From: Sulfurovum sp.
GTDB taxonomy: Bacteria > Campylobacterota > Campylobacteria > Campylobacterales > Sulfurovaceae
Length of the DNA stretch: 32,073 nucleotides
Assembly (NCBI GenBank): GCA_020721345.1
Contig: DYMX01000015.1
Coordinates: forward strand, 1 to 32,073
Direction: 5' to 3'
The notes under the pieces were generated by a model, which worked only from the letters and a program-made list of their open reading frames with translations, was not told the origin of the DNA and searched no databases. The translations under genes and the position numbers were made by a program. Positions 16,257-29,832 of the stretch are shown in pieces. How positions within the stretch are numbered: position 1 is the first letter of the stretch; each line of letters opens with the position of its first letter.

Positions 16257-17276
16257 CTAATCCAACTTTGTATTTTGTTTTAAATATATCTTCATCATTG
16301 CTATAAAAAAAGATGTCATAGCAGGTCCTAGGATAATACCCCAAAAACCGAAACTGCTCATTCCTGCAATTATGGCAAAAAATATAACAAGTTCATTTAT
16401 CTCTACAGAACTTTTCAGAAAATCTTTTTTAATTATTTTTATGATTATAGGTTTTATAAATGTATCAGCGATGATGGAAATGATAACTATTGATAAAACA
16501 GCCAGCATCAAAGCGCTATGAGAATCTCCGTTTGACCAAAGATACAAACTCAAAGGCGACCACACGATTGCACCTCCTACTATCGGTATAAGAGATGCGA
16601 AGCCATATACTATGCCAAATAAAAGTCCATCAAAACCAAAGAAAGTCGCTAGTATTCCAAATAAAATCCCCTCAAATATGGCAGTGGCAATGGTGGAGTA
16701 GAATACAACTTCCATAGTTGCCGATATATCTTGTATCATTTTTGAACTATTGCTCTCAGAAAGTGGCAAAAAAGAACTTATGATAGCAAATATCTTATCG
16801 CCGTAAAAGTTTATAAAATAATAAAAAACAAGTACAAATAGAGTATTTTTAACAAATCCGAGTCCTGCCTGACCGAAATTTGTTATATAGCCACTCGATT
16901 CTTTGAGTTGCAACAAAATCTTGTCCGTATTTAAGTTTTTTTCCGTCAATATACCTATATATGGGATATCTTTTGTGGATGTTTTTATATTTTCTATAAC
17001 TTGCAAAACTATATTCTGATCAATTGTTGAAATATATTTCATACCGATCGTTGTCAGATATACCATAGGAGCAAAAATAGCGAATAGCAAAAATAGCGTT
17101 ATAAGCATTGCCGATATCCATCTTCTTTTAAAATATCTTTCAAGCTTATTTGATATATTATATGTTGCCATATAAAGCAGTATAGCAATAACGGCTGGAA
17201 GCAAAAAAGGCTGATAAATGGTGTATGCTCCAAGGGTTGCTAAGCCTATCAAAAATAGAGTCATATAATTATTCAA
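16257..17276 (-). CDS. AI-2E/PerM-family membrane permease
   Basis: The product (about 339 residues) is an AI-2E family transporter, with about eight membrane segments and the C-terminal signature [28 protein letters not shown]. The family includes TqsA (autoinducer-2 export) and various Na+/H+ antiporters, so the substrate here is not predictable. The likely start is TTG at 17276, which stands five bases after GGGAGG and overlaps the end of ruvB by 8 bases. ATG at 17264 is an alternative, but its spacing from the SD is too long. It is the last gene of the panB-lipoprotein-ruvB run. Confidence 0.85.
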
Positions 17277-18285
17277 AAAGACCTCCCGTGTCATCATGTG
17301 GACTTTGCAGCCTAAAGTACTCATAACTTTTTTGTGTCGCTATGCGTCCTCTGGCTGTTTTTTCTATAAAACCGTTTGCGATCAAGTAAGGCTCTATCAC
17401 ATCTTCTATCGTCCCCTCATCCTCGCTCAATACCGCTCCAATAGTTGATAGACCCATCGGTTTGCCTTTGGCGCTTAGAAGCAGGTCTAAAAGCTTTAAA
17501 TCTTGCTCATCAAATCCCAAAGTATTTACTCCTAGCTCATTAAGAGCATACTTTGTAGTGGCAAGTGTAATTTCGCTTTCATTTGCAACTTCTGCAAAAT
17601 CTCTTACACGCTTTAGTAATCTAAGAGCTACTCTTGGTGTACCTCTGCTTCTTTTTGCAATTTCCAGAGCAGAATCGCTTTTAGTCGGTTTGCCGAGTTT
17701 ATATGCAGCTTGCTCTATAATGGCTGCAAGTTCATTTTGATCGTAAAATTGCATTCTAAAATGCATACCGAACCTATCCCTTAGGGGATTGGAGATCATT
17801 CCTGCTCTTGTAGTTGCGCCGATAAGCGTAAAACGAGGCAAGTCTATTTTAACAGATTGTGCGGCAGGCCCTGAGCCTATAATGATATCAAGCCTAAAAT
17901 CTTCCATTGCAGGATAGAGAATCTCTTCAACAGCAGGACTTAGGCGATGTATCTCGTCAATGAAGAGTACATCACCCTCTTCTATATTGGTCAGAAGAGC
18001 TGCCAGATCTCCTGCTTTTTCTATCATTGGAGCCGCTGTTGTCTTGATATTTGTTTGCATCTGAATAGAGATAAGGTTTGCCAAAGTGGTCTTGCCAAGC
18101 CCAGGAGGACCAAAAAATAGGATATGATCCAACGCTTCAGCTCTTTTAAGGCTGGCTTCTATAAAAACTTGAAGATTTTTTTTGATCTTTTCCTGACCTA
18201 TATATTCTCTCCACTCTATAGGTCTAAGCGAAAATTCTATATTGCTATCACTCTCAAATTTTTCTATCTCAACAATTCTTTGCAT
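17269..18285 (-). CDS. ruvB: Holliday junction branch migration ATPase RuvB
   Basis: The 338-residue AAA+ motor drives branch migration of Holliday junctions with RuvA. Visible are the N-terminal [17 protein letters not shown], Walker [14 protein letters not shown] (about 57-69), Walker [12 protein letters not shown], sensor [19 protein letters not shown] with the arginine finger, and the C-terminal winged helix ([21 protein letters not shown]). Length and motifs are complete. Its ATG abuts the stop of the lipoprotein gene (18286). ruvA and ruvC are not in the window. Confidence 0.97.
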
Positions 18286-18696
18286 CTATTTTTTTGTCTG
18301 TGCCATTTTTGAAGGCATTGGACTTGCCGCACTTGGTTTGTATATCTCTACTCTGTTTACTACTATTCCCGTTGTTACAAATGAATTTGCGATCGCACTT
18401 GCAATAAATTTTTGTTTTTCGTTTGCAACAATACCTGTCAATAGTATATTTGAGCTGTCTCTATCAGCGTATATGTATGTTTTATCCAAATCTCTGCTTT
18501 TTGCAAATGCGCTTTCTATTTTTCTAGTAGTTGAATCTGTATTTCTTGCGTGAGCAAGAGGTTTTGGCAAACCGCTTTCTAACTGTCCGCTCTGTTTGCC
18601 GGCCAACGAGACACTACTTCCCAGTTGCGATACTCCGCATCCTGTCCAAAACAGACTGGATGCGGTCAATAAACTTATAAAAATTTTATTTCTCAT
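18286..18696 (-). CDS. Putative lipoprotein with a BON-like domain
   Basis: The 136-residue protein starts with a lipoprotein signal (MRNKIFISLLTASSLFWTGC, cysteine at residue 20). The remainder contains IESAFAKSRDLDKTYIYADRDSSNILLTGIVANEKQKFIASAIANSF, a helix-strand pattern with a GxV turn that resembles BON (OsmY-type) domains. The C-terminal tail is proline/serine-rich and basic. Its SD (AGGAG) overlaps the panB stop codon (TAGGAG), suggesting coupling. Attachment to the outer membrane is an inference; the function is unknown. Confidence 0.72.
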   Translation of the reverse strand: MRNKIFISLLTASSLFWTGCGVSQLGSSVSLAGKQSGQLESGLPKPLAHARNTDSTTRKIESAFAKSRDLDKTYIYADRDSSNILLTGIVANEKQKFIASAIANSFVTTGIVVNRVEIYKPSAASPMPSKMAQTKK

Positions 18697-18704
18697 ATAT
18701 TCTC

Positions 18705-19496
18705 CTAATATGTAAATTTTTCGTTTGGAAATGAAACATCTTTAACTTCGGCTGCATATTGTTTTATAGCATCTTTAACGATACCGCTGCCGTCTATATA
18801 TCTTTTTACAAATTTTGGCAAGAAGTTATCATAAAGTCCCAACATATCACTCCATACAAGCACTTGCCCGTCACAATCAACCCCTGCTCCTATACCAATG
18901 GTTGGGATCTTAAGCTTTTTTGTTATCTCAGAGGCAACATCAGGTTTTACGCCTTCGATTATGAGTCCAACGGCACCTGCTGTTTCAAGCGCTAAAGCAT
19001 CTTCTATTATTGATCTTTTTTCATCCTCATTTTTGCCTTTTACGCTGTATCCGCCCTCCTGTCTAGCGCTTTGAGGCTTTAAGCCCACATGCCCAAAGAC
19101 TGCTATAGCATTTTGACTCAAGTATTTGACAATATCCGCCTTTTCTTTTCCGCCTTCAAGCTTTACGGCATCTACTTTGGTTTGACCATAAGCTTTAATG
19201 GCATTTTTGAGCGCCTGTTTTTTGCTCCCATAAGTTCCAAAAGGCATATCAAAAAGTAGAAAACTTCTCTTTGTTCCATTGCCGACAGCCCTTGCATGAT
19301 ATATCATTTGATCCATAGTGGCGCTTAATGTATCATCTTGTCCTGCAAAACTCATATTTAAACTATCGCCTATCAATATCACATCAACATGTTCATCAAA
19401 TAAAGAGGCGAACAGTGAATCATAAGCCGTCACCATTACGATCTTTTCACGACCTTTCATGTCACGGAGAGTTTTAAGCGTAATCTTTTTATCCAA
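18705..19496 (-). CDS. panB: 3-methyl-2-oxobutanoate hydroxymethyltransferase
   Basis: The 263-residue enzyme transfers a hydroxymethyl group from methylene-tetrahydrofolate to ketoisovalerate, the first step of pantothenate synthesis. Signatures are MVTAYDSLFASLFD, the metal-binding VILIGDSLNMSFAG, LLFDMPFGTYG, AVFGHVGLKPQS, and GLIIEGVKP with the catalytic glutamate. The start is TTG at 19496 with AAAGG six bases upstream; no ATG is closer. It heads a leftward run with the lipoprotein, ruvB and the permease, and diverges from trpA over 76 bases. Confidence 0.95.
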   Translation of the reverse strand: MDKKITLKTLRDMKGREKIVMVTAYDSLFASLFDEHVDVILIGDSLNMSFAGQDDTLSATMDQMIYHARAVGNGTKRSFLLFDMPFGTYGSKKQALKNAIKAYGQTKVDAVKLEGGKEKADIVKYLSQNAIAVFGHVGLKPQSARQEGGYSVKGKNEDEKRSIIEDALALETAGAVGLIIEGVKPDVASEITKKLKIPTIGIGAGVDCDGQVLVWSDMLGLYDNFLPKFVKRYIDGSGIVKDAIKQYAAEVKDVSFPNEKFTY

Positions 19497-19533
19497 TTAA
19501 AACCTTTTTTGACTCTATTTTATCAAAAAAAAG

Positions 19534-19539
19534 TATAAT
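19534..19539 (+). promoter_or_regulatory. Candidate trpA promoter (-10 TATAAT)
   Basis: TATAAT at 19534-19539 is preceded by TTGACT at 19509-19514, a 19-base spacing that is longer than optimal. Transcription would start about 27 bases before the TTG start of trpA. The site lies in the divergent trpA/panB spacer. Confidence 0.45.
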
Positions 19540-19572
19540 ATCGCATTCATTTTACATAAAAGAGTTAAGAAA

Positions 19573-20313
19573 TTGAAAAAATTAGTCGCATACATTACAA
19601 CAGGATTTCCGTCATTTGAATTTACTATCGATTTGGCAATGTCCCTTAAAGAGGCCGGCGTTGATGCGTTAGAGCTCGGTATTCCTTTTTCAGATCCGGT
19701 AGCAGACGGTCCGATCATAGAGAAAGCAAATCTGCTCTCCTTGCAAAATGCATTTAAAATAGATAAACTTTTTGAAGCTGCCAAACAAATTGCTCCTCAT
19801 ATTGATACGCTATGGATGGGATATTTCAACTCTTTTTATCATAAAGGTTTTGACAAATTTGTCAGAGAGGCAAAAGGCGCAAATTTAAGCGGGTTTATCA
19901 TCCCTGACCTTCCTTTTGAAGAAGCCGTTCCTTATCAAGAAAAAATGAGAGCAGACGGTATGACGCTTATAGATTTTATTGCTCCTACCGATACAAAAGA
20001 AAGAATAGAAAAAATAGTCCAAAATAGCCGAAAATTTATCTATCTTGTAGCCTATGCAGGAATTACCGGCAGCGGCAAAAGCGAATCACTTGATGAGACA
20101 ATCGCTCTAATTAGAGAATATACAAAAACGCCTGTATATGTCGGATTTGGCGTAGATGAACACACGGCAAAAGAAAAAGTGCATGGTGTAGATGGAGTGA
20201 TCGTTGGATCAGCATTAGTCAAAGTACTTCTTGATGAAACGCTAACTAACACTCAAAAATTAAGCAAAATATCAAATATTGCTAAAAATATAAAAGAGAT
20301 GATAAACGAATAA
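19573..20313 (+). CDS. trpA: Tryptophan synthase alpha chain
   Basis: The 246-residue TIM-barrel subunit cleaves indole-3-glycerol phosphate and passes indole to TrpB. The catalytic glutamate and aspartate are in DALELGIPFSDPVADGPII (about residues 35-53). Also visible are FNSFYHKGFDKF, GFIIPDLPFEEA, the mobile loop and IYLVAYAGITGSGK, and the phosphate-binding VYVGFGVD and GVIVGSALVK. The start is a TTG at 19573 with only a weak AAGAG upstream, and no ATG is available before the conserved KKLVAYITTGFPSFE. trpB and the other trp genes are not adjacent. Confidence 0.95.
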   Translation: MKKLVAYITTGFPSFEFTIDLAMSLKEAGVDALELGIPFSDPVADGPIIEKANLLSLQNAFKIDKLFEAAKQIAPHIDTLWMGYFNSFYHKGFDKFVREAKGANLSGFIIPDLPFEEAVPYQEKMRADGMTLIDFIAPTDTKERIEKIVQNSRKFIYLVAYAGITGSGKSESLDETIALIREYTKTPVYVGFGVDEHTAKEKVHGVDGVIVGSALVKVLLDETLTNTQKLSKISNIAKNIKEMINE

Positions 20314-20340
20314 ATAAGCTAAGACGATCTTAGCTTATTT
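20312..20340. terminator. Bidirectional terminator between trpA and the 20841 gene
   Basis: A perfect 13-base-pair stem, AAATAAGCTAAGA / TCTTAGCTTATTT, with loop CGA, is flanked by T-rich sequence on both sides. Both convergent genes' stop codons (TAA 20311-20313 on plus, TAA 20337-20335 on minus) lie in or at the edge of the stem. Confidence 0.8.
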
Positions 20341-20841
20341 TGTATTGTTGTTATCCAAGCTCTCTTTGATAGCGAAAAGCAAAAATATCACTAATGCTCC
20401 CATAACAACTGTTACTATCTCTTGGAACATACTGCTTAGTCCTGCAAAGAATCCAACATTTGCCATATCAGACAAGCCGCCTATAATTGCCGCCACAATT
20501 CCAACTACCACAAAGATCGTAACTACTACTTCACCAAAGCCTAAAACAATTTCTCTTACCTTGTGAGTTATCGGCTCAAAAAAATCAAAAGTTTTTTCTG
20601 TAGTATCTATCAACCTTTCTGTTATATGAACTCTAGCTTCGTTTGCATCATGAGCAAGTTCTGTTATTTTTTCTTTTGCAGAAATACTAGCATCCTTCGC
20701 TTTTTCGCCTAAGTCGTGAACTGTAGCTTTTATGTCATCTTTGATCTCATCGATTTTCTCTTTTTGAGTATGCGATGGATTATCTATGGTTTCTTTTACC
20801 TCTGTTTCTACTTGGGTATCTGTTTTTTTCGGTCTTGCCAT
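20335..20841 (-). CDS. Uncharacterised coiled-coil membrane protein
   Basis: The 168-residue protein begins MARPKKTDTQVETEVKE and has a charged, alanine-rich helical region (about residues 20-90) with LEA/apolipoprotein-like spacing (KEKITELAHDANEARVHITERLIDTTEK). Two membrane segments follow (VVVTIFVVVGIVAAIIGG and IVTVVMGALVIFLLF). I do not recognise a named family. ATG at 20841 with GGAG nine bases upstream is preferred over ATG at 20856, which contains that SD. It converges on trpA and shares its terminator, and diverges from hemB. Confidence 0.7.
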   Translation of the reverse strand: MARPKKTDTQVETEVKETIDNPSHTQKEKIDEIKDDIKATVHDLGEKAKDASISAKEKITELAHDANEARVHITERLIDTTEKTFDFFEPITHKVREIVLGFGEVVVTIFVVVGIVAAIIGGLSDMANVGFFAGLSSMFQEIVTVVMGALVIFLLFAIKESLDNNNTK

Positions 20842-20956
20842 AATAATTTTCTCCATTCTTTATTTTTAAAAATTATAACATATATTACAAATAATAAGTA
20901 GTTTAGTTTTTCAATTATCTTATTGTACAATTAAACAATTTTTTAAAAGGCTTAAA

Positions 20957-21928
20957 ATGTTTGCAAGATTTAGAAGAAATCGTATGAATCCGGTATTGCG
21001 GGATATGTTACAAGAAACTCATTTGAGAGTTGACGATCTTATGTATCCGCTGTTTGTCAGAAGCGGCGAAGGTATAAAAAATGAAGTAGCTTCTATGCCT
21101 GGCGTTTATCAAATGAGCGCAGATGAGATAATCAAAGAGTGCAAAGAGTTACTATCTCTTGGGATAAAATCTATCATCCTTTTTGGGATACCTGATATTA
21201 AAGATAGTGTCGGGAGCGAGGCAATGTGTGAGCATAGCATTATTGCAAATACCATAAGGGCTATCAAAAAAGAGTATCCTCAAATGCTTGTTGCAACAGA
21301 TCTTTGTTTTTGCGAATATACCGACCATGGGCATTGCGGGGTGCTTGATCCGCACACTCACAGCGTTGACAATGACACAACATTGCATAATCTAGGTCTT
21401 CAAGCGGTAGTGCATGCCAAATCAGGAGCAGATCTTATAGCTCCAAGCGGTATGATGGATGGGATGATAACCGCTATTAGGGCTGGGCTTGACAATGCAG
21501 GATTCGTAAATCTGCCTATCATGAGCTACAGTACGAAATTTGCTTCTGCATATTATGGGCCGTTTCGTGATGTGGCTGAATCAACGCCGAGCTTTGGAGA
21601 CAGAAGAACTTATCAAATGAATCCGGCAAATAGGCTTGAGGCCATCAATGAAAGCATAGCTGACGAGAGCGAAGGAGCTGATATACTTATGGTTAAACCC
21701 GCGCTTGCTTATCTTGATATCGTAAGAGATGTTAGAAACAACACTTCAAAACCGCTTGCCGTATACAATGTAAGCGGTGAGTATAGTATGCTAAAAATGG
21801 CCGGAAAAGCCGGTGTGATAGATTATGATAGAGTTATGATGGAAACGCTTTTGGGATTCAAAAGAGCAGGTGCGGATATCATTATCACATACCATGCAAA
21901 AGAAGCCGTGATATTGTTAAATAAGTAG
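20957..21928 (+). CDS. hemB: Porphobilinogen synthase (delta-aminolevulinic acid dehydratase)
   Basis: The 323-residue enzyme condenses two aminolevulinate molecules into porphobilinogen in haem synthesis. The metal-binding cysteines are in [14 protein letters not shown] (about residues 117-130), the substrate lysines in [17 protein letters not shown] and [14 protein letters not shown], and [11 protein letters not shown] follows. The ATG at 20957 has AAAAGG eight bases upstream. The downstream argF starts 52 bases later; hemN lies further along the same strand, so two haem genes flank argF. Confidence 0.96.
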
Positions 21929-21980
21929 TTTTAACCGTTTTATGATAAAATAATCTCTTTACTTCCACAAGGAAAAGCAG

Positions 21981-22898
21981 ATGAGACACTTTTTGAGCAT
22001 CAAGGATTTCACAAAAGACGAACTTTTGGAGATGATAGAACTCGCAAATAAAATAAAAACACAAACCAAAAGAAAAGAGTTTGTACCGTATTTGGAAAAC
22101 CAAACTCTTGGTATGATATTTGAAAAAAGCTCAACAAGAACAAGAGTAAGCTTTGAGACAGGCATCTATCAGCTAGGAGGCATTGGATTGTTTTTGTCGT
22201 CAAATGATATTCAGTTGGGACGCGGTGAGCCTCTAAAAGATACAGCAAGAGTGCTTTCGCGTATGGTTGATATGGTTATGATACGAACATTCGAGCAGTC
22301 TCGTCTTGATGAATTTGCCGCATATTCAAAAGTGCCTGTCATAAACGGTCTTAGCAATGAGTATCATCCGGTCCAGATCATGACGGATTATTTTACTTTG
22401 CTTGAGCTTGGCAAAACAAATCCTATAGTAGCTTATATTGGAGATGGAAATAACATTACCAACTCATGGCTTATGCTTGCAGCCAAACTTGATCTTGAGA
22501 TGAGAGTTGCAACACCAAAAGGCTATGAGTGCGATAGCGGTATTGTAGGTATTGCGCTTGGATTTGCAAATGAGAGCGGAGCGAAATTAAGCTTCTATAA
22601 TGATCCTGATATTGCCGTAAAAGATGCTGATGTGATCATTACGGACACTTGGGTATCTATGGGTCAAGAGAGTGAAAAAGAAGCTAGAGTGAAGGCATTT
22701 ACAGGATATATGGTTGATAATGTTATGATGAGCAAAGCAAAAAGCGATGCCGTGTTTATGCACTGTCTTCCTGCATACAGAGGATATGAAGTAAGCGAAG
22801 AGATCTTTGAAAAATTTGAAGATGTCGTGTTCTTAGAAGCAGAAAATAGACTTCATATGCAAAAAGGTATCATGGTGTGGTTAGATGAACATAGATGA
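21981..22898 (+). CDS. argF: Ornithine carbamoyltransferase
   Basis: The 305-residue enzyme makes citrulline from ornithine and carbamoyl phosphate in arginine synthesis. The carbamoyl-phosphate loop [13 protein letters not shown] (about residues 47-59) and [12 protein letters not shown] are shared with PyrB, but the ornithine-binding [15 protein letters not shown] near residue 255 and DTWVSMGQE identify OTC. The start has AAGG about nine bases upstream. The direction is biosynthetic, since no arcA or arcC is nearby. A palindromic repeat lies just after the stop. Confidence 0.95.
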
Positions 22899-22911
22899 GA
22901 ATAAGTACATA

Positions 22912-22993
22912 TCGTCACTGCGAACGAAGTGTGGCAGTCTAGAAAAATCATACATGGATTGCCGCGAAGTCTTTAGACTTCTCGCAATGACAC
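22912..22993. repeat. Palindromic REP-like element between argF and hemN
   Basis: The block begins GTCACTGCGA (22914-22923) and ends TCGCAATGAC (22982-22991), inverted copies with one mismatch. Just inside, GGCAGTCT pairs imperfectly with GGATTGCC, and the right half contains a perfect hairpin GAAGTCT-TT-AGACTTC. The form GTCATTGCGA...GGCAATC...GATTGCC...TCGCAATGAC is a widely seen dispersed bacterial palindrome. It is the most GC-rich non-coding stretch here and is likely a mobile, RNA-folding repeat. Confidence 0.7.
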
Positions 22994-23021
22994 CCAAAAT
23001 AATAAAAGCGCAAAAGAAGAG

Positions 23022-24392
23022 ATGATGAGTAAAATAGATTTTGAAAAATTTGGAAAGTTCAGCAAAGCCGGTCCAAGATATACAAGCTATCCTACTGCAT
23101 TAGAATTTAATGAAGAGTTCAAATATGACGATTATATAAAATATCTAGAAAATGGTAAAGACAAATTATCCATATATGTTCATTTACCGTTTTGTCGAAG
23201 TGCCTGTTATTTTTGTGGATGTAATGTTGTTTTTACTTCAAAAGAAGATAAACTTGACAGATATGTAGAGTATCTAAAAAAAGAGATTGATATACTTGTC
23301 AATCATATTGACACCAACAGAGAAGTAATACAGTTTCATTTTGGCGGTGGAACGCCGACATACTATAGCGCAGACTCTCTTGATGAAATTGTCACATATA
23401 TAAAATCGAGGTTTACAAATTGGTCAAAAGATGCCGAGATTAGCTGTGAGATAGATCCAAGATTTTTCAATGAAGACCAGATGAAAGTTTTTGTAAAACA
23501 TGGTTTTAATCGCATAAGTTTCGGCGTACAGGATTTTGACCCAAAAGTTCAAGAAGCTATCCATAGGATACAACCGTTTGATATAACTAAAAATGCGGTT
23601 GACCTAGCTAGAAAATATGGGATAAATTCTATCAATATAGATCTAATATATGGTCTGCCATATCAAAGTTTTGAAAGTTTTAAAACGACTTTAGAATTAG
23701 CTTTTTCACTTAATCCCGATAGACTTGCCGTCTTTAACTATGCTCATGTGCCGTGGCTCAAAAAAACTATGAGAAAATTTGATGAAACAACATTACCGCA
23801 TCCAAGCGTGAAACTTGAGATTTTTAAATACACTATTGATTTCTTTGAAAAAAATGGCTATAAAATGGTTGGTATGGATCATTTCGCAAAACCAAATGAT
23901 GAACTTTTTACGGCAATTGCCAAAGGTGAACTGCATAGAAATTTCCAAGGATATACTACAAAAGGCGGCGCAAACCTGATTGGAATTGGACTGACAAGTA
24001 TAGGCGAAGGGATGCGATACTATGCTCAAAATACAAAAAATATGTTATTTTATGAAGAAGCTATAGACAAGGGTCTTCTTCCATTTGAAAGAGGCGTTAG
24101 TCTAAGTGATGATGACGTGATACGAAAAAGCGTCATTATGGAACTTATGGCAAACTTTTCTATTGATATAAAAAGAATAGAAAATGAGCATAAAATAGTT
24201 TTTAAAGATTATTTTGCTGATGCCCTGCTTGCTTTAAACGAATACAAGGATGCCGAGCTTATCACTATTAATGATGAAAAAATAGAAGCAAATAGTACAG
24301 GGGCGATGCTGATACGAAATATTGCAATGCCTTTTGATGCATATATGAACAAATATAAAGACAGTAAAAAAAGTTTTTCAAAAACAGTATAG
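23022..24392 (+). CDS. hemN: Oxygen-independent coproporphyrinogen III oxidase (radical SAM)
   Basis: The 456-residue enzyme decarboxylates coproporphyrinogen III to protoporphyrinogen IX without oxygen. The radical SAM cluster motif is HLPFCRSACYFCGC (CxxxCxxC plus the extra cysteine typical of genuine HemN, near residues 54-67). FHFGGGTPTYYS, RISFGVQDFDPKVQEAIHRIQP and GVSLSDDD follow. The length and the N-terminal KFSKAGPRYTSYPTA fit true HemN rather than HemW. The first of two adjacent ATGs (23022, 23025) is used here. The next gene starts 17 bases downstream and is probably cotranscribed. Confidence 0.95.
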   Translation: MMSKIDFEKFGKFSKAGPRYTSYPTALEFNEEFKYDDYIKYLENGKDKLSIYVHLPFCRSACYFCGCNVVFTSKEDKLDRYVEYLKKEIDILVNHIDTNREVIQFHFGGGTPTYYSADSLDEIVTYIKSRFTNWSKDAEISCEIDPRFFNEDQMKVFVKHGFNRISFGVQDFDPKVQEAIHRIQPFDITKNAVDLARKYGINSINIDLIYGLPYQSFESFKTTLELAFSLNPDRLAVFNYAHVPWLKKTMRKFDETTLPHPSVKLEIFKYTIDFFEKNGYKMVGMDHFAKPNDELFTAIAKGELHRNFQGYTTKGGANLIGIGLTSIGEGMRYYAQNTKNMLFYEEAIDKGLLPFERGVSLSDDDVIRKSVIMELMANFSIDIKRIENEHKIVFKDYFADALLALNEYKDAELITINDEKIEANSTGAMLIRNIAMPFDAYMNKYKDSKKSFSKTV

Positions 24393-24409
24393 AAGGCGGA
24401 AGTATAAGG

Positions 24410-25708
24410 GTGAAGAAAGAAGCAAAAGATATATTTAACTTCAAAGAGACAAGCGATGCATGCGTAAAGTGTGGAAAATGCGTGCCCGTATGTACTATTC
24501 ACCAGATAAATCCGGACGAAACAACATCCCCTAGAGGCTTTATAGACCTCTTGGGCGCATACAAAGAAGGAAAGCTGGAATTGGACAGCAATGCCAAAGA
24601 TATATTTGAAAGCTGTTTTTTATGTACAAACTGTGTAAGCGTGTGTCCAAATACACTCGCTACGGATATGGTTATAGAAGAGGTGCGCGCAGACATTGCC
24701 CAGAAATTTGGAATATCATGGTTTAAAAGAGCATTTTTCTTTTTGCTTCGAAACCGTACCATTATGGATATTGTTATGAAACTCGGCTTTATGTTTAAAA
24801 CATGCGTTTTGAGCATTGACTTTGAAGGCAGAGGATTAAGAGCTAGATTTTCACTTCCAATGGTAAAAAAAGGGAGGCTTCTTCCCTCCATGGCAAAAAC
24901 AAGCTTTCTAAATAGTTATCCTGAGCATATAACTCCAAAAGAAAGTTCAAAGCAAAAAGTTGCAATATTTATCGGTTGTCTAGCAAACTATAATTACACA
25001 ACTATTGGTGATAGCTTGGTTGAAATTCTTAAAATTTTACAAATAGATACTTTTATACCAAAGAAACAGCTTTGCTGTGGCGCTCCTGCATATTTTACCG
25101 GCGATGTCGATACGGTTGAATATCTTATAAGAAAAAATTTGGATTATTTTGAAACATTCATAGATGAATACGATGCCATGATCCTCCCAGAAGCCACATG
25201 CAGCGCTATGATAAAGCATGACTGGGAAGTTTTTTGCAAAAACCATAACAAAAGCGAGTTAATTCCAAGAATTGAAAAAATTCTGCCAAAAATACATATG
25301 GCAACATCTTGGCTTCATGACAATACCAACTTAAAAGAACAACTTGTGGCAAAAGGTAAGAAATTTGACGATCTTGTCACATACCATGACCCATGCCATG
25401 CAAGAAAAGTGCAAGGCATATATCAAGAGCCTAGAAATCTTCTTAGCGCCAATTATAAAATGATCGAGATGAGCGATCCAAATCGCTGTTGTGGGTTTGG
25501 GGGCGTAACCATGCAAAGTGAAAAATTTCACCTTGCCGAGCTTGCCGGCAAGCCAAAAGCTGCCATGATAAAAGAGACAAAAGCAAAATACGTAAGCGCT
25601 GAGTGCAGCGCATGCAGAGTGCAGCTGAGCGAAGCTATGAACAATGCTAAAGTTGAGACGATCTTTAAAAATCCGCTTGAACTGATTGCCGAAGCCCTAA
25701 AAGAATAG
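24410..25708 (+). CDS. (Fe-S)-binding CCG-domain oxidoreductase subunit
   Basis: The 432-residue protein has two ferredoxin-type cluster motifs near the N-terminus (CVKCGKCVPVC and CFLCTNCVSVCP) and two CCG domains (QLCCGAPAYF; YHDPCHARKVQG with RCCGFGG). This is the layout of GlcF, GlpC and HdrD subunits, which pass electrons from flavoproteins to the membrane or quinone pool. The partner enzyme is not nearby. The start is GTG at 24410 with a GGCGGAAG stretch upstream. In Campylobacterota such a gene commonly follows hemN, so a role in anaerobic haem synthesis or electron transfer is possible but unproven. Confidence 0.85.
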   Translation: MKKEAKDIFNFKETSDACVKCGKCVPVCTIHQINPDETTSPRGFIDLLGAYKEGKLELDSNAKDIFESCFLCTNCVSVCPNTLATDMVIEEVRADIAQKFGISWFKRAFFFLLRNRTIMDIVMKLGFMFKTCVLSIDFEGRGLRARFSLPMVKKGRLLPSMAKTSFLNSYPEHITPKESSKQKVAIFIGCLANYNYTTIGDSLVEILKILQIDTFIPKKQLCCGAPAYFTGDVDTVEYLIRKNLDYFETFIDEYDAMILPEATCSAMIKHDWEVFCKNHNKSELIPRIEKILPKIHMATSWLHDNTNLKEQLVAKGKKFDDLVTYHDPCHARKVQGIYQEPRNLLSANYKMIEMSDPNRCCGFGGVTMQSEKFHLAELAGKPKAAMIKETKAKYVSAECSACRVQLSEAMNNAKVETIFKNPLELIAEALKE

Positions 25709-25727
25709 ACAAACAGTCTATTCTTTT
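25699..25727. terminator. Bidirectional terminator after the CCG-domain gene
   Basis: A perfect 12-base-pair stem AAAAGAATAGAC / GTCTATTCTTTT, with loop AAACA, ends in T-runs on both strands. The stop codons of both converging genes (TAG 25706-25708 plus; TAG 25720-25718 minus) lie inside the two arms. Confidence 0.85.
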
Positions 25728-26310
25728 ATATCTGCTTTTATGTCTCGCAGCTCTTCTCTTAATTTGTCTAAATTTTTATGATAGTCTTTGCTGTCACCGT
25801 ATTTTAAAAATCGAGGATATTGGCGGTGTATAGATATAGTTCTGCTTGCATGGCGTATTGGACACCAAAACTGCTCTGTCCTGCCCGCAACTTCTGATAT
25901 ATACCCCATAAGCCCATTAACATAACTGCAATACATACAATTTGCTTTTTCTATAATATTCAAATAGCCCAATCTATGCCTATCAATGATCATATAATCA
26001 CTTCGCTTCACTTTTGTGATTTTATAGATCGGAAAGCATATAGCCTGATATGCGGTTACAAACAGATCCAAAATAAATGCCGGCAACAAAACAGACCAAA
26101 TTATAGGAATAGTCAACATAAACAGCAATGGAGCAGTTGCGATATATTTAAGTATCCCTCCTTTATCATTTTTGTATATTGCCAAAAGCTCTTCTTTTTT
26201 TTGGCTATTTCACAGTTAAATTTTTCATACTCTTTGTGTACCTCAACCTCAAGTTCATATTCCAAGGCTTTTATATGCTCTACTATAGCATCTATTTTAC
26301 TGTTTTCCAT
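25718..26310 (-). pseudogene. Conserved membrane protein split by a -1 shift at A AAA AAG
   Basis: Two overlapping leftward frames form one protein. The 5' frame starts at ATG 26310, one base after the aguB stop, and reads MENSKIDAIVEHIKALEYEL through EIAKKK. The 3' frame begins EELLAIYKNDKGGILKYIA and continues through a membrane segment (LLFMLTIPIIWSVLLPAFIL) to paired-cysteine motifs (ANCMYCSY, EQFWCPIRHA) at 25718. They join by a -1 shift in the A8-G run at 26202-26194, whose zero-frame reading is A AAA AAG. The joined product is 197 residues. The cysteine part resembles a widespread uncharacterised proteobacterial family. It may be a one-base deletion, homopolymer error or programmed frameshift. 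Confidence 0.7.
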
Positions 26311-26311
26311 T

Positions 26312-27184
26312 TTAATCACAATATCGTTTCAGCAAATTATCATATGCATCTATACGCCTATCTCGCAAGAATGGCCAAATATCTCTAACCGCTTTTGTTT
26401 TATCCATATCAACTTCACAGTACAATATAGCCTCATCTTGGTTATTTGCATGCGCCATCAGTTCGCCTTGGGGACCGCATACAAAACTGTTCCCCCAAAA
26501 TCTTATTCCACTCATCACTCCGCTGCTGTCGTTTTCAAATCCTACGCGATTACAACTAAGCGCCGGAACTCCGTTTGCCACCGCGTGTGAACGCTGCACG
26601 GTTATCCACGCATCAAGCTGTCTATTTTTTTCTTCTTCCGTATCGCCGTCAAACCATCCGATAGCAGTCGGATAGATAAGCGCATCAGCGCCCTTTAAAG
26701 CCATTAGTCTTGCGGCCTCTGGATACCATTGATCCCAGCATACTAAGACGCCGAGCTTGCCTATGGATGTATTTATAGGCTCAAACCCAAGATCTCCGGG
26801 CGTAAAATAAAATTTTTCATAAAATCCCGGGTCATCTGGGATATGCATTTTACGATATTTGCCCGCAACACTTCCATCACTATCAAACACTACTGCCGTA
26901 TTGTGATATAGTCCGGCAGCGCGTTTCTCAAACAATGATGTGACCAAAACCACATTAGCTTCTTTTGCAACACTACTCCAATACTTTACATCATCATCAA
27001 AATTTGCCGCGTAGTCAAAAAATGCAGTATCTTCACTTTGACAAAAATACTCATTTTGATGCAACTCTTGGAGAACCACTAGGTTGGCTCCATTTTTTGA
27101 TGCTTCTTTGATTCTTTCTGAAGTTACTTTTATAGTTTCTTTTTTTGATCCATAAAATTTTTGTTGTATTAGGGCTACTTTCAT
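26312..27184 (-). CDS. aguB: N-carbamoylputrescine amidase
   Basis: The 290-residue nitrilase-superfamily enzyme hydrolyses N-carbamoylputrescine to putrescine, CO2 and ammonia. The catalytic triad is visible: glutamate in VVLQELHQNEYFC, lysine in YRKMHIPDDPGFYEKFYF, and cysteine in LGVLVCWDQWYPEAARL. The sequence HIPDDPGFYEKFYFTPGDLGF is characteristic of the AguB subgroup. It lies immediately downstream of agmatine deiminase, together forming the two-step agmatine-to-putrescine route. The stop is one base from the start of the next gene. Confidence 0.95.
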   Translation of the reverse strand: MKVALIQQKFYGSKKETIKVTSERIKEASKNGANLVVLQELHQNEYFCQSEDTAFFDYAANFDDDVKYWSSVAKEANVVLVTSLFEKRAAGLYHNTAVVFDSDGSVAGKYRKMHIPDDPGFYEKFYFTPGDLGFEPINTSIGKLGVLVCWDQWYPEAARLMALKGADALIYPTAIGWFDGDTEEEKNRQLDAWITVQRSHAVANGVPALSCNRVGFENDSSGVMSGIRFWGNSFVCGPQGELMAHANNQDEAILYCEVDMDKTKAVRDIWPFLRDRRIDAYDNLLKRYCD

Positions 27185-27226
27185 TAATTTCCCTTTTTAT
27201 ATTTTTTATATTTTACCATAGTTTTA

Positions 27227-28252
27227 CTACAACCCTATTTGCATAGTAGAGCAATGAAGGCTTCCGCCCTGCTCTATAAGTCTTAGGCAATTGATGGGGA
27301 TAATTTCTAAATTTGGAAACAACTTTTTAAATATATCTCCCGCAATTTTATCTGCTTCATCATCATAAGTCGGATAAATAAGTGCATGATTTGTGATTAG
27401 AAAATTGGCATAAGTAGCCGGCAGTCTTACTCCATCTTTATATTTTGGTTTTGTAAACGGCAAAGCAACCAAATTATAAGCTTTGCCCTCTGGCGTTTTA
27501 AATGTTTTAAGCTGCTCTTCCATTTTGAGTAACTCTTCATAATGCTCATCGTTTTCATCATCACATTTAATATATACGATCGTATCGCGATTTACAAATC
27601 TTGCTAGTGTGTCTATGTGACTATCCGTATCATCCCCTGCGAGGTATCCATGATCCAACCATAAAAATCTTTTAACCCCCAAATACTCTTTTAGCTTTGC
27701 TTCAACTTCTTCTTTTGATAGACCACCGTTCCTATTTGGATTACACATACACTCGCTTGTAGTCAGTATAGTTCCTTCCCCATCACTCTCTATACTTCCG
27801 CCCTCTAAGACAAGATCTATGGTCTCCATAGGAGTATTGCCAAAATAACCTTGTTTTTGTAAAGCTATATTGACAGAGTTATCCAGTGTTGCCTCAAACT
27901 TTCCTCCCCACCCATCAAATGTAAAGTCTAAATATTTCGTTTGTCCATTCTCTTCTATGGTTATAACTCCATAATCTCTAGTCCATGTATCGTCTGTTGG
28001 AAGTTCTATAAAACTCATGTTATCTGTAGAACAAAATAGATCTTTTATCTTTTGAGCGTTATCGCATACTATATAAACGCTTTCTTTGTATGCTATTGTT
28101 TGAGCGATACGCACAAATACGCTCAAAGCTGAGTTTAGACGATCGCTCCAGTCACTATCTTCATGCGGAAAAGAGAGCAAAACCACTCTTTGTTTTTCCC
28201 ATTCTGCGGGCATTCTTTTATTCACTGCTGGAATTGTGTTTCTTTTCATCAT
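27227..28252 (-). CDS. aguA: Agmatine deiminase
   Basis: The 341-residue enzyme converts agmatine to N-carbamoylputrescine. It has the guanidine-group-modifying fold, with MPAEWEKQRVVLLSFPHEDSDW at the N-terminus, DTWTRDYGVI, LEGGSIESDGEGTILTTSECM, DHGYLAGDDTDSHID, and the catalytic cysteine in GGSLHCSTMQ near the C-terminus. The start is ATG at 28252 with GGAG six to seven bases upstream. The open frame extends further, to 28420, but that part runs into alr on the opposite strand and is not coding. It pairs with aguB for putrescine synthesis. Confidence 0.95.
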   Translation of the reverse strand: MMKRNTIPAVNKRMPAEWEKQRVVLLSFPHEDSDWSDRLNSALSVFVRIAQTIAYKESVYIVCDNAQKIKDLFCSTDNMSFIELPTDDTWTRDYGVITIEENGQTKYLDFTFDGWGGKFEATLDNSVNIALQKQGYFGNTPMETIDLVLEGGSIESDGEGTILTTSECMCNPNRNGGLSKEEVEAKLKEYLGVKRFLWLDHGYLAGDDTDSHIDTLARFVNRDTIVYIKCDDENDEHYEELLKMEEQLKTFKTPEGKAYNLVALPFTKPKYKDGVRLPATYANFLITNHALIYPTYDDEADKIAGDIFKKLFPNLEIIPINCLRLIEQGGSLHCSTMQIGL

Positions 28253-28281
28253 TTTTTTCTCCAATTTTATATACAAAGTTG

Positions 28282-28287
28282 TATAAT
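28282..28287 (+). promoter_or_regulatory. Candidate -10 TATAAT of alr, implying a leaderless mRNA
   Basis: TATAAT at 28282-28287 lies in the 40-base aguA/alr divergent spacer, with only five bases between it and the alr ATG at 28293. Transcription would begin at or within a base or two of the start codon, and no SD precedes the ATG. Confidence 0.45.
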
Positions 28288-28292
28288 CCGAT

Positions 28293-29303
28293 ATGGCATA
28301 CATTAAAATAAACAGATCAAATCTTATACATAATCTTAGCCAAATTGCACTGAAAGCCGGCTCTGTGAACAAAATTGCAATTGTTTTAAAAGATAATGCA
28401 TATGGGCATGGAGTTGGCAAGATAGCAAAAATAGCTAGTAACTTTGGTATAACAAAAGCTGTTGTTAGAAACTACGCAGAAGCCAAAGAGATTGAAGAGC
28501 TTTTTGATGATATTATTGTATTAGGCGGAGCGATCATACCCTCACCCAAACTATCATATGCGATCAATTCTATAGAAAAACTTATATCATGTCCTAACGA
28601 CACAAGGATCGAACTTAAAATAGACACAGGAATGCATAGAAACGGTATAGCGCTTGATGAGTTGCAAATCGCGATCGGCATGATAAAAGATAAAAATATT
28701 GATCTAGTTGGTGTTATGAGTCATTTTGCAAGTGCTGATGAACTTGGAAGTGAATATTTTTATCAATATAAAAACTTTCAAAATGTCAAAAAGATTATAA
28801 ATGAATATGGCTTTGATAATATCAGATTTCATATACACAACTCTGCAGGGATCTTGCGGACAAAAGAGTTTAAAGAAGATTTAGTTAGACTTGGCATAGG
28901 CGCATACGGATATAATCCAATGGATAGCGCATTTGAAAATGTTGAACTAAAGCCGGTAATGTCGCTTTTTGCCAAAAAAGTTTCATCTCGGATGCTTTTG
29001 GCAGGTCAGAGGGTTGGCTACGGCGGAGAATTTACGGCGCCTAAAGAAATAACAGTTTCTACTTATGATCTTGGATATGGAGATGGATGGCGAAGAGGAG
29101 ACATAAAACAACCATACATTACGCCGAGCGGCAAAGAAATATTAGGCAGGGTATCGATGGATTTCATCACACTTGAAGGTGATAAAGAAGAAGTTTGTAT
29201 CATGGAAGATGCAAATGCGACCGCGAAACATTTTGGTACAATTAGTTATGAGATAACTTGCGCTCTGCATGCAAATATCAATAGGACTATTGTTGACGCT
29301 TAA
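28293..29303 (+). CDS. alr: Alanine racemase
   Basis: The 336-residue PLP enzyme interconverts L- and D-alanine for peptidoglycan synthesis. The PLP lysine is in [13 protein letters not shown] (about residue 33) and the catalytic tyrosine in [11 protein letters not shown]; also visible are [32 protein letters not shown] and [12 protein letters not shown]. The protein is a little shorter than the usual 355-370, as in other Campylobacterota. The ATG has no SD and lies close to a TATAAT, so it may be leaderless. ssrA follows on the same strand. Confidence 0.95.
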
Positions 29304-29314
29304 AGATCTTGCTC

Positions 29315-29343
29315 TTGACATTACTAAACAAAAGTGTTAGAAT
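29315..29343 (+). promoter_or_regulatory. Strong sigma-70-type promoter of ssrA
   Basis: TTGACA (29315-29320) and TAGAAT (29338-29343) are separated by exactly 17 bases, a near-ideal promoter. Transcription would start near 29350, giving a precursor that RNase P trims to the mature 5' end at 29371. A small hairpin CATTGA/TCAATG (29349-29367) falls in the removed leader. Confidence 0.85.
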
Positions 29344-29370
29344 TCGCCCATTGATCCTTCCTCAATGTTT

Positions 29371-29739
29371 GGGGGTGACTGGTTTCGACTGGAGTAGTAT
29401 GGATTATGTGCATGTCGGACTGGGCAATTCCGTTACGCGGCCCAACGCGAACAAACGCAAAAAATACAAATTATTCTCCTGCTTACGCTTTAGCTGCGTA
29501 AGTTTAACAAACTTTAGGAGTGCCTTGCTGCCGAGTGTTATCATAGGTAGATTTTTAGGTATCACAAAATGATAACTTATTCTATTGAGTGCCTGATCAA
29601 TAGATGAAATTTCAGGCTGGTAATGTGTAGCTTTGGGTATTGAGCAAAGCATTATGAGATTTATCAATATCATCTAAACATGTAGAGTCATAATTCGAGC
29701 TATTTTAGGACTGGGGTTCGATCCCCCACACCTCCACCA
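29371..29739 (+). ncRNA. ssrA: tmRNA (ssrA)
   Basis: The 369-base gene has the mature 5' end GGGGGTGACTGGTTTCGAC and the 3' end GGTTCGATCCCCCACACC followed by TCCACCA. The acceptor stem GGGGGTG pairs with CACCTCC (one G-U), and CCA is encoded. The tag reading frame is 29457-29501 and encodes AKNTNYSPAYALAA then TAA; PAYA-AA is the same ending type as the Helicobacter and Campylobacter tags. tmRNA with SmpB rescues stalled ribosomes and tags incomplete proteins for ClpXP/ClpAP. The 3' end is a classic integration site, and an integrase gene lies 193 bases downstream. Confidence 0.97.
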
Positions 29740-29832
29740 AGTAACAATCTCACACAATCCAATAAACACCATTTAAGCCCCTAAAATACGAGCTTTGAAG
29801 TACAATTATAGTCTAACTTGTTTTAAGGTATT

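Follow-up and report, generated by a model that had tools for sequence, protein, structure and literature searches.

The window, i.e., the whole stretch of 32,073 nt of Sulfurovum DNA analyzed here, constitutes contig 40 of a draft genome that totals 1.24 Mb and comprises 51 contigs. On its minus strand lies a membrane-protein gene that is split between two reading frames (Table 1), with an N-carbamoylputrescine amidase-like gene (26312-27184) as its upstream neighbor. The zero-frame ORF begins MENSKIDAIVEHIKALEYELEVEVHKEYEKFNCEIAKKKKSF, and the homology of its N-terminal part is based on residues 1-54 of the query. Past a run of eight A residues (A8), the -1 frame continues as EELLAIYKNDKGG and stays open as far as its own stop. 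When the two are joined across the tract, the product, EIAKKKEELLAIYK, is 60-88% identical to whole homologues within the genus. The original prediction, made from the sequence of the window, was that the zero frame stops soon after the tract and that the -1 frame carries the remainder of a conserved protein, and this was confirmed. The A AAA AAG heptamer and the 7-base inverted repeat around the tract were likewise placed correctly, the heptamer also as to its phase, with AAA (26199-26197) and AAG (26196-26194) as zero-frame codons. An interpretation of the downstream ORF as a gene of its own was rejected, as its first start-like codon (TTG, 26185) lies within the conserved protein, at a point that relatives read through. 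The conserved protein is genuinely interrupted, but neither the heptamer nor the hairpin means much by itself.

Table 1. Features of the split gene, in coordinates of the window.
Feature	Position	Strand	Content or remark
Zero-frame ORF (65 aa)	26113..26310	-	ATG at 26310; 36 conserved N-terminal codons, Lys codons, out-of-frame residues, TGA (26115-26113)
A8 run, point of the frame break	26195..26202	-	followed by G26194; one base fewer than in the sister
A AAA AAG in zero-frame phase	26194..26200	-	missing at the same place in relatives
GCCAAAA/TTTTGGC inverted repeat	26181..26205	-	encloses the A8 tract; GCC arm missing from the sister
-1 frame continuation	25718..26194	-	remaining conserved protein: hydrophobic helices, Cys motif, stop (ending at 25718)

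Programmed frameshifting and the site in relatives

The heptamer conforms to the slippery pattern X XXY YYZ in the zero-frame phase, and the -1 frameshift site of E. coli dnaX shares both this A AAA AAG and its phase. Unlike dnaX, however, the site lacks a Shine-Dalgarno-like stimulator (none was found upstream, where the sequence AAAAATTTAACTGTGAAATAGCC has, by reading, no GGAG-like core), a properly spaced downstream hairpin and conservation. Indeed, the 74 nt downstream fold like shuffled sequences (z -0.07), and the sole hairpin at the site holds the slippery A run within its own stem. The outcome also differs, since in dnaX the zero frame yields a full-length product, whereas here it yields a stub. 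The set of lysine tRNAs bears on how prone A AAA AAG is to shifting; tRNA-Lys(ttt) was present and tRNA-Lys(ctt) was not found among the only about 14 tRNAs in the assembly. As the genome is rated 98.9% complete, so low a number of tRNA genes suggests that the assembly lacks tRNA clusters.

Motifs of both kinds are common in this DNA. AAAAAAG heptamers occur 48 times in the window (25 expected), BA8G tracts 100 times in the genome, and perfect 7-bp inverted repeats with loops of 4-18 bases 81 times in the window, where 3 of the 42 A/T runs of at least 7 overlap such a repeat. Moreover, removal of one A from AAA AAA AAA GAA (Lys-Lys-Lys-Glu) gives AAA AAA AAG, which always contains A AAA AAG in the zero-frame phase. 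Since the loss of one base from a Lys-rich stretch makes the heptamer unaided, its presence in phase is weak evidence for recoding, the more so where the split is confined to one genome.

A protein search across 59 related genomes gave homologues in 20 of them, counting this one; the 19 others are all in a single frame, with no stop inside the match. By this search six of the 19, or seven by another count, belong to the same genus, and the further DNA matches were all weak. The genus Sulfurovum is represented in the collection by 11 genomes, none of them a second genome of this species. The closest sister of the present genome is a Sulfurovum metagenome-assembled genome that is 91% identical over 13.5 kb, with a contig of 13,512 bases aligning to 16261-29740 of the window. 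At the site, the sister reads TCT AAA AAA AGA GAA GAG, without the A8, the in-phase heptamer or the GCC arm. The next two relatives read TCA CAA AAA AAA GAA CAA and TCT CAA AAA AAA GCA GAA, and another reads ACC CAA AAG CGC GAG. At the codon level, none of the relatives compared is split and none has A AAA AAG in phase; their A tracts at the site number 7-8 residues in other phases, or are absent.

A scan of genome contigs extended the comparison to 276 relatives across Campylobacterota, Methylococcales, Desulfobulbales, Nitrospinota and others, with none found in viral contigs. The best 80 of these 276 were kept. Among 99 loci compared (some being the same gene twice), 4 were covered incompletely or had a stop within the alignment, and in none were two aligned pieces found in two frames as in the window. 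Conservation of the A8 together with the split frame, which had been proposed as the check for recoding, is thus contradicted by the unbroken relatives. As conservation, stimulators and downstream folding all came out negative, a programmed ribosomal -1 frameshift is not supported.

Selection on the two halves and frame breaks elsewhere

Nei-Gojobori dN/dS against the sister was about 0.04 for the 5' part, a short test piece of 36 codons, and about 0.13 for the 3' part, compared with 0.09 for aguB. Differences by codon position were 9, 6 and 35 in the 3' part versus 19, 14 and 86 in aguB (Fisher p = 0.85), with third-position differences predominating in both. When two outgroups were used, the amino-acid changes in the 3' part divided into 5 on the branch of the window and 4 on that of the sister. 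Both halves are still under purifying selection, without visible decay. Such an absence of decay after a break implies that the break is very recent, that it is not real (a consensus error), or that it is leaky or partly bypassed.

Over the 13.5 kb that align to the sister, the indel at 26195 is the sole one that breaks a gene, as judged from the alignment read against ORF lists; every other indel whose length is not divisible by three is intergenic or lies at the end of a gene. A wider survey, in which 426 kb from this genome were set against 824 kb from the sister, covered 191 sister ORFs and flagged 5 of them. Inspection showed 3 of these, including the present gene, to be frame-broken; of the other 2, one is a short ORF of doubtful status and one reflects a difference that precedes a start. 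Frame-broken genes therefore form a low background of 1-2%. Among coding A/T runs of at least 8 that align to the sister, 56 of 58 have the same length context, the exceptions being this site and a run with a one-base difference just outside it. This agreement indicates that the assembly has no general homopolymer problem and rules out miscalling of homopolymers genome-wide.

Frame breaks were also seen in other genes, all named by eye. On contig 37 of this genome, an FAD-dependent oxidoreductase-like gene (L193:1998-3096), which is whole in the sister (369 aa), has one extra base and no long homopolymer. On the same contig, a cinA-like gene (L193:10264-11004; also L139), likewise whole in the sister, has two opposite one-base breaks, the second at an A10 run. 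In the sister, an ammonium-transporter-like region (L242:10443-11766) contains several frame breaks next to a run of N, which probably reflect an assembly problem in that genome.

Origin of the break

Taken together, these results are best explained by a sporadic, recent, lineage-specific deletion of one base at an A-rich spot of an otherwise ordinary gene, a reading that we consider probable. We infer that the organism itself carries the deletion, which would have arisen as follows. The ancestor would have had one continuous frame, like the relatives; in this lineage a base would then have been lost, by slippage of the DNA polymerase or by simple deletion. The original prediction had set programmed recoding against the loss of an A from an A9 run. 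Recoding is not supported, as the split and the in-phase heptamer are absent from all relatives compared at this site and stimulators like those of dnaX are missing, and the loss of a base is supported; an A9 ancestor, though, is not required, since the sister (AAAAAAAGAGAAG) equally allows the loss of a G that interrupts its A run. In either case, the loss would have left A8G and moved the rest of the gene into the -1 frame, with the in-phase A AAA AAG as a by-product. Translation would then mostly terminate after codon 65, and the resulting stub would lack the hydrophobic helices; a little full-length protein might still be made by slippage of RNA polymerase or the ribosome on the A8. The deletion would be recent, as neither half has decayed yet.

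The GeneTack survey of frameshifted genes requires a conserved site for its programmed class and attributes singletons that have whole homologues mainly to sequencing error (PMC3711429). The present gene has whole homologues elsewhere and is split in one genome only; it is a singleton by that standard. It shares with the GeneTack singletons the split in a single genome, the whole homologues and the absence of a conserved site, and nothing material distinguishes it from them; the slippery heptamer that the break leaves in phase here is incidental. In annotation, the gene should be marked as frameshifted and not as recoded, and the case has little import beyond annotation.

The main rival to a recent deletion is an error of consensus or assembly, or a minority allele. 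In that case the organism would mostly carry an intact gene, and a base at the A run would have dropped out of the contig sequence. This is a serious possibility, though a distinctly smaller one. The genome is a draft in 51 contigs, neither half has decayed, as expected of a misread intact gene, GeneTack's view of singletons points the same way, and the cinA-like gene on a nearby contig has two opposite breaks. Against it stand the agreement of 56 of the 58 coding A/T runs with the sister and the fact that one other break in the genome is not at a homopolymer. Homopolymer contingency genes are a known feature of Campylobacterota, and this precedent, together with the proneness of a coding A run to slippage, would accommodate phase variation, i.e., a reversible change in run length that switches the protein on and off, as the original prediction had also suggested. 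However, a run of eight is short by the measure of contingency tracts, a long variable tract has not been retained at the site by any relative, and the remaining coding A/T runs are unchanged in length when compared with the sister. Phase variation is therefore left unsupported, and we consider it very improbable.

It is also conceivable that the split allele is fixed in this Sulfurovum species and that full-length protein is routinely produced at useful levels by transcriptional or ribosomal slippage on the A8, either as a fortuitous rescue like those in insect endosymbionts or as a newly arisen recoding site. In insect endosymbionts, breaks at poly-A tracts are corrected in 12-50% of transcripts (PMC5009743; also PMC3017870), and in E. 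coli the deletion of an A from the 8A repeat of M.HaeIII is bypassed (PMC3812077); the purifying selection on the 3' half, as measured against the sister, also speaks for this reading. But the split is not conserved, no stimulators were found at the site, and runs of A9 or longer are few (about 29 in 1.24 Mb). Such a new dependence on slippage, outside the insect endosymbionts, is in our view very improbable. The slippage-rescued breaks of Blochmannia and Buchnera (PMC3017870) resemble the present one in being single breaks at an A run in a gene otherwise undecayed; it differs in that the tract is only A8, the break does not persist across species, and there is no sign of a host-restricted insect symbiont.

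The interrupted protein and its family

The gene product is an uncharacterized bacterial membrane protein of a family that is widespread, as the 276 relatives in the genome scan attest, and unnamed. The protein itself had no matches in Pfam, NCBIfam, PHROG or PDB, and no fold match was found; other members of the family gave three weak, scattered Pfam matches (E 0.002 or worse). The member in the sister, encoded by an intact locus (L022:3461-4039), has 193 aa and a predicted structure with a mean pLDDT of 84. Its predicted helices comprise a long one at the N-terminus (3-49), a hydrophobic pair (62-73 and 75-95), another at 119-149 and one at the C-terminus. Since the break falls in the N-terminal helix, the stub lacks both the hydrophobic helices and the conserved motif NCxYCxYxNGL...E...RTEQxWCPIxH, whose Cys and His residues are invariant in the family. 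This family is of more interest than the break itself.
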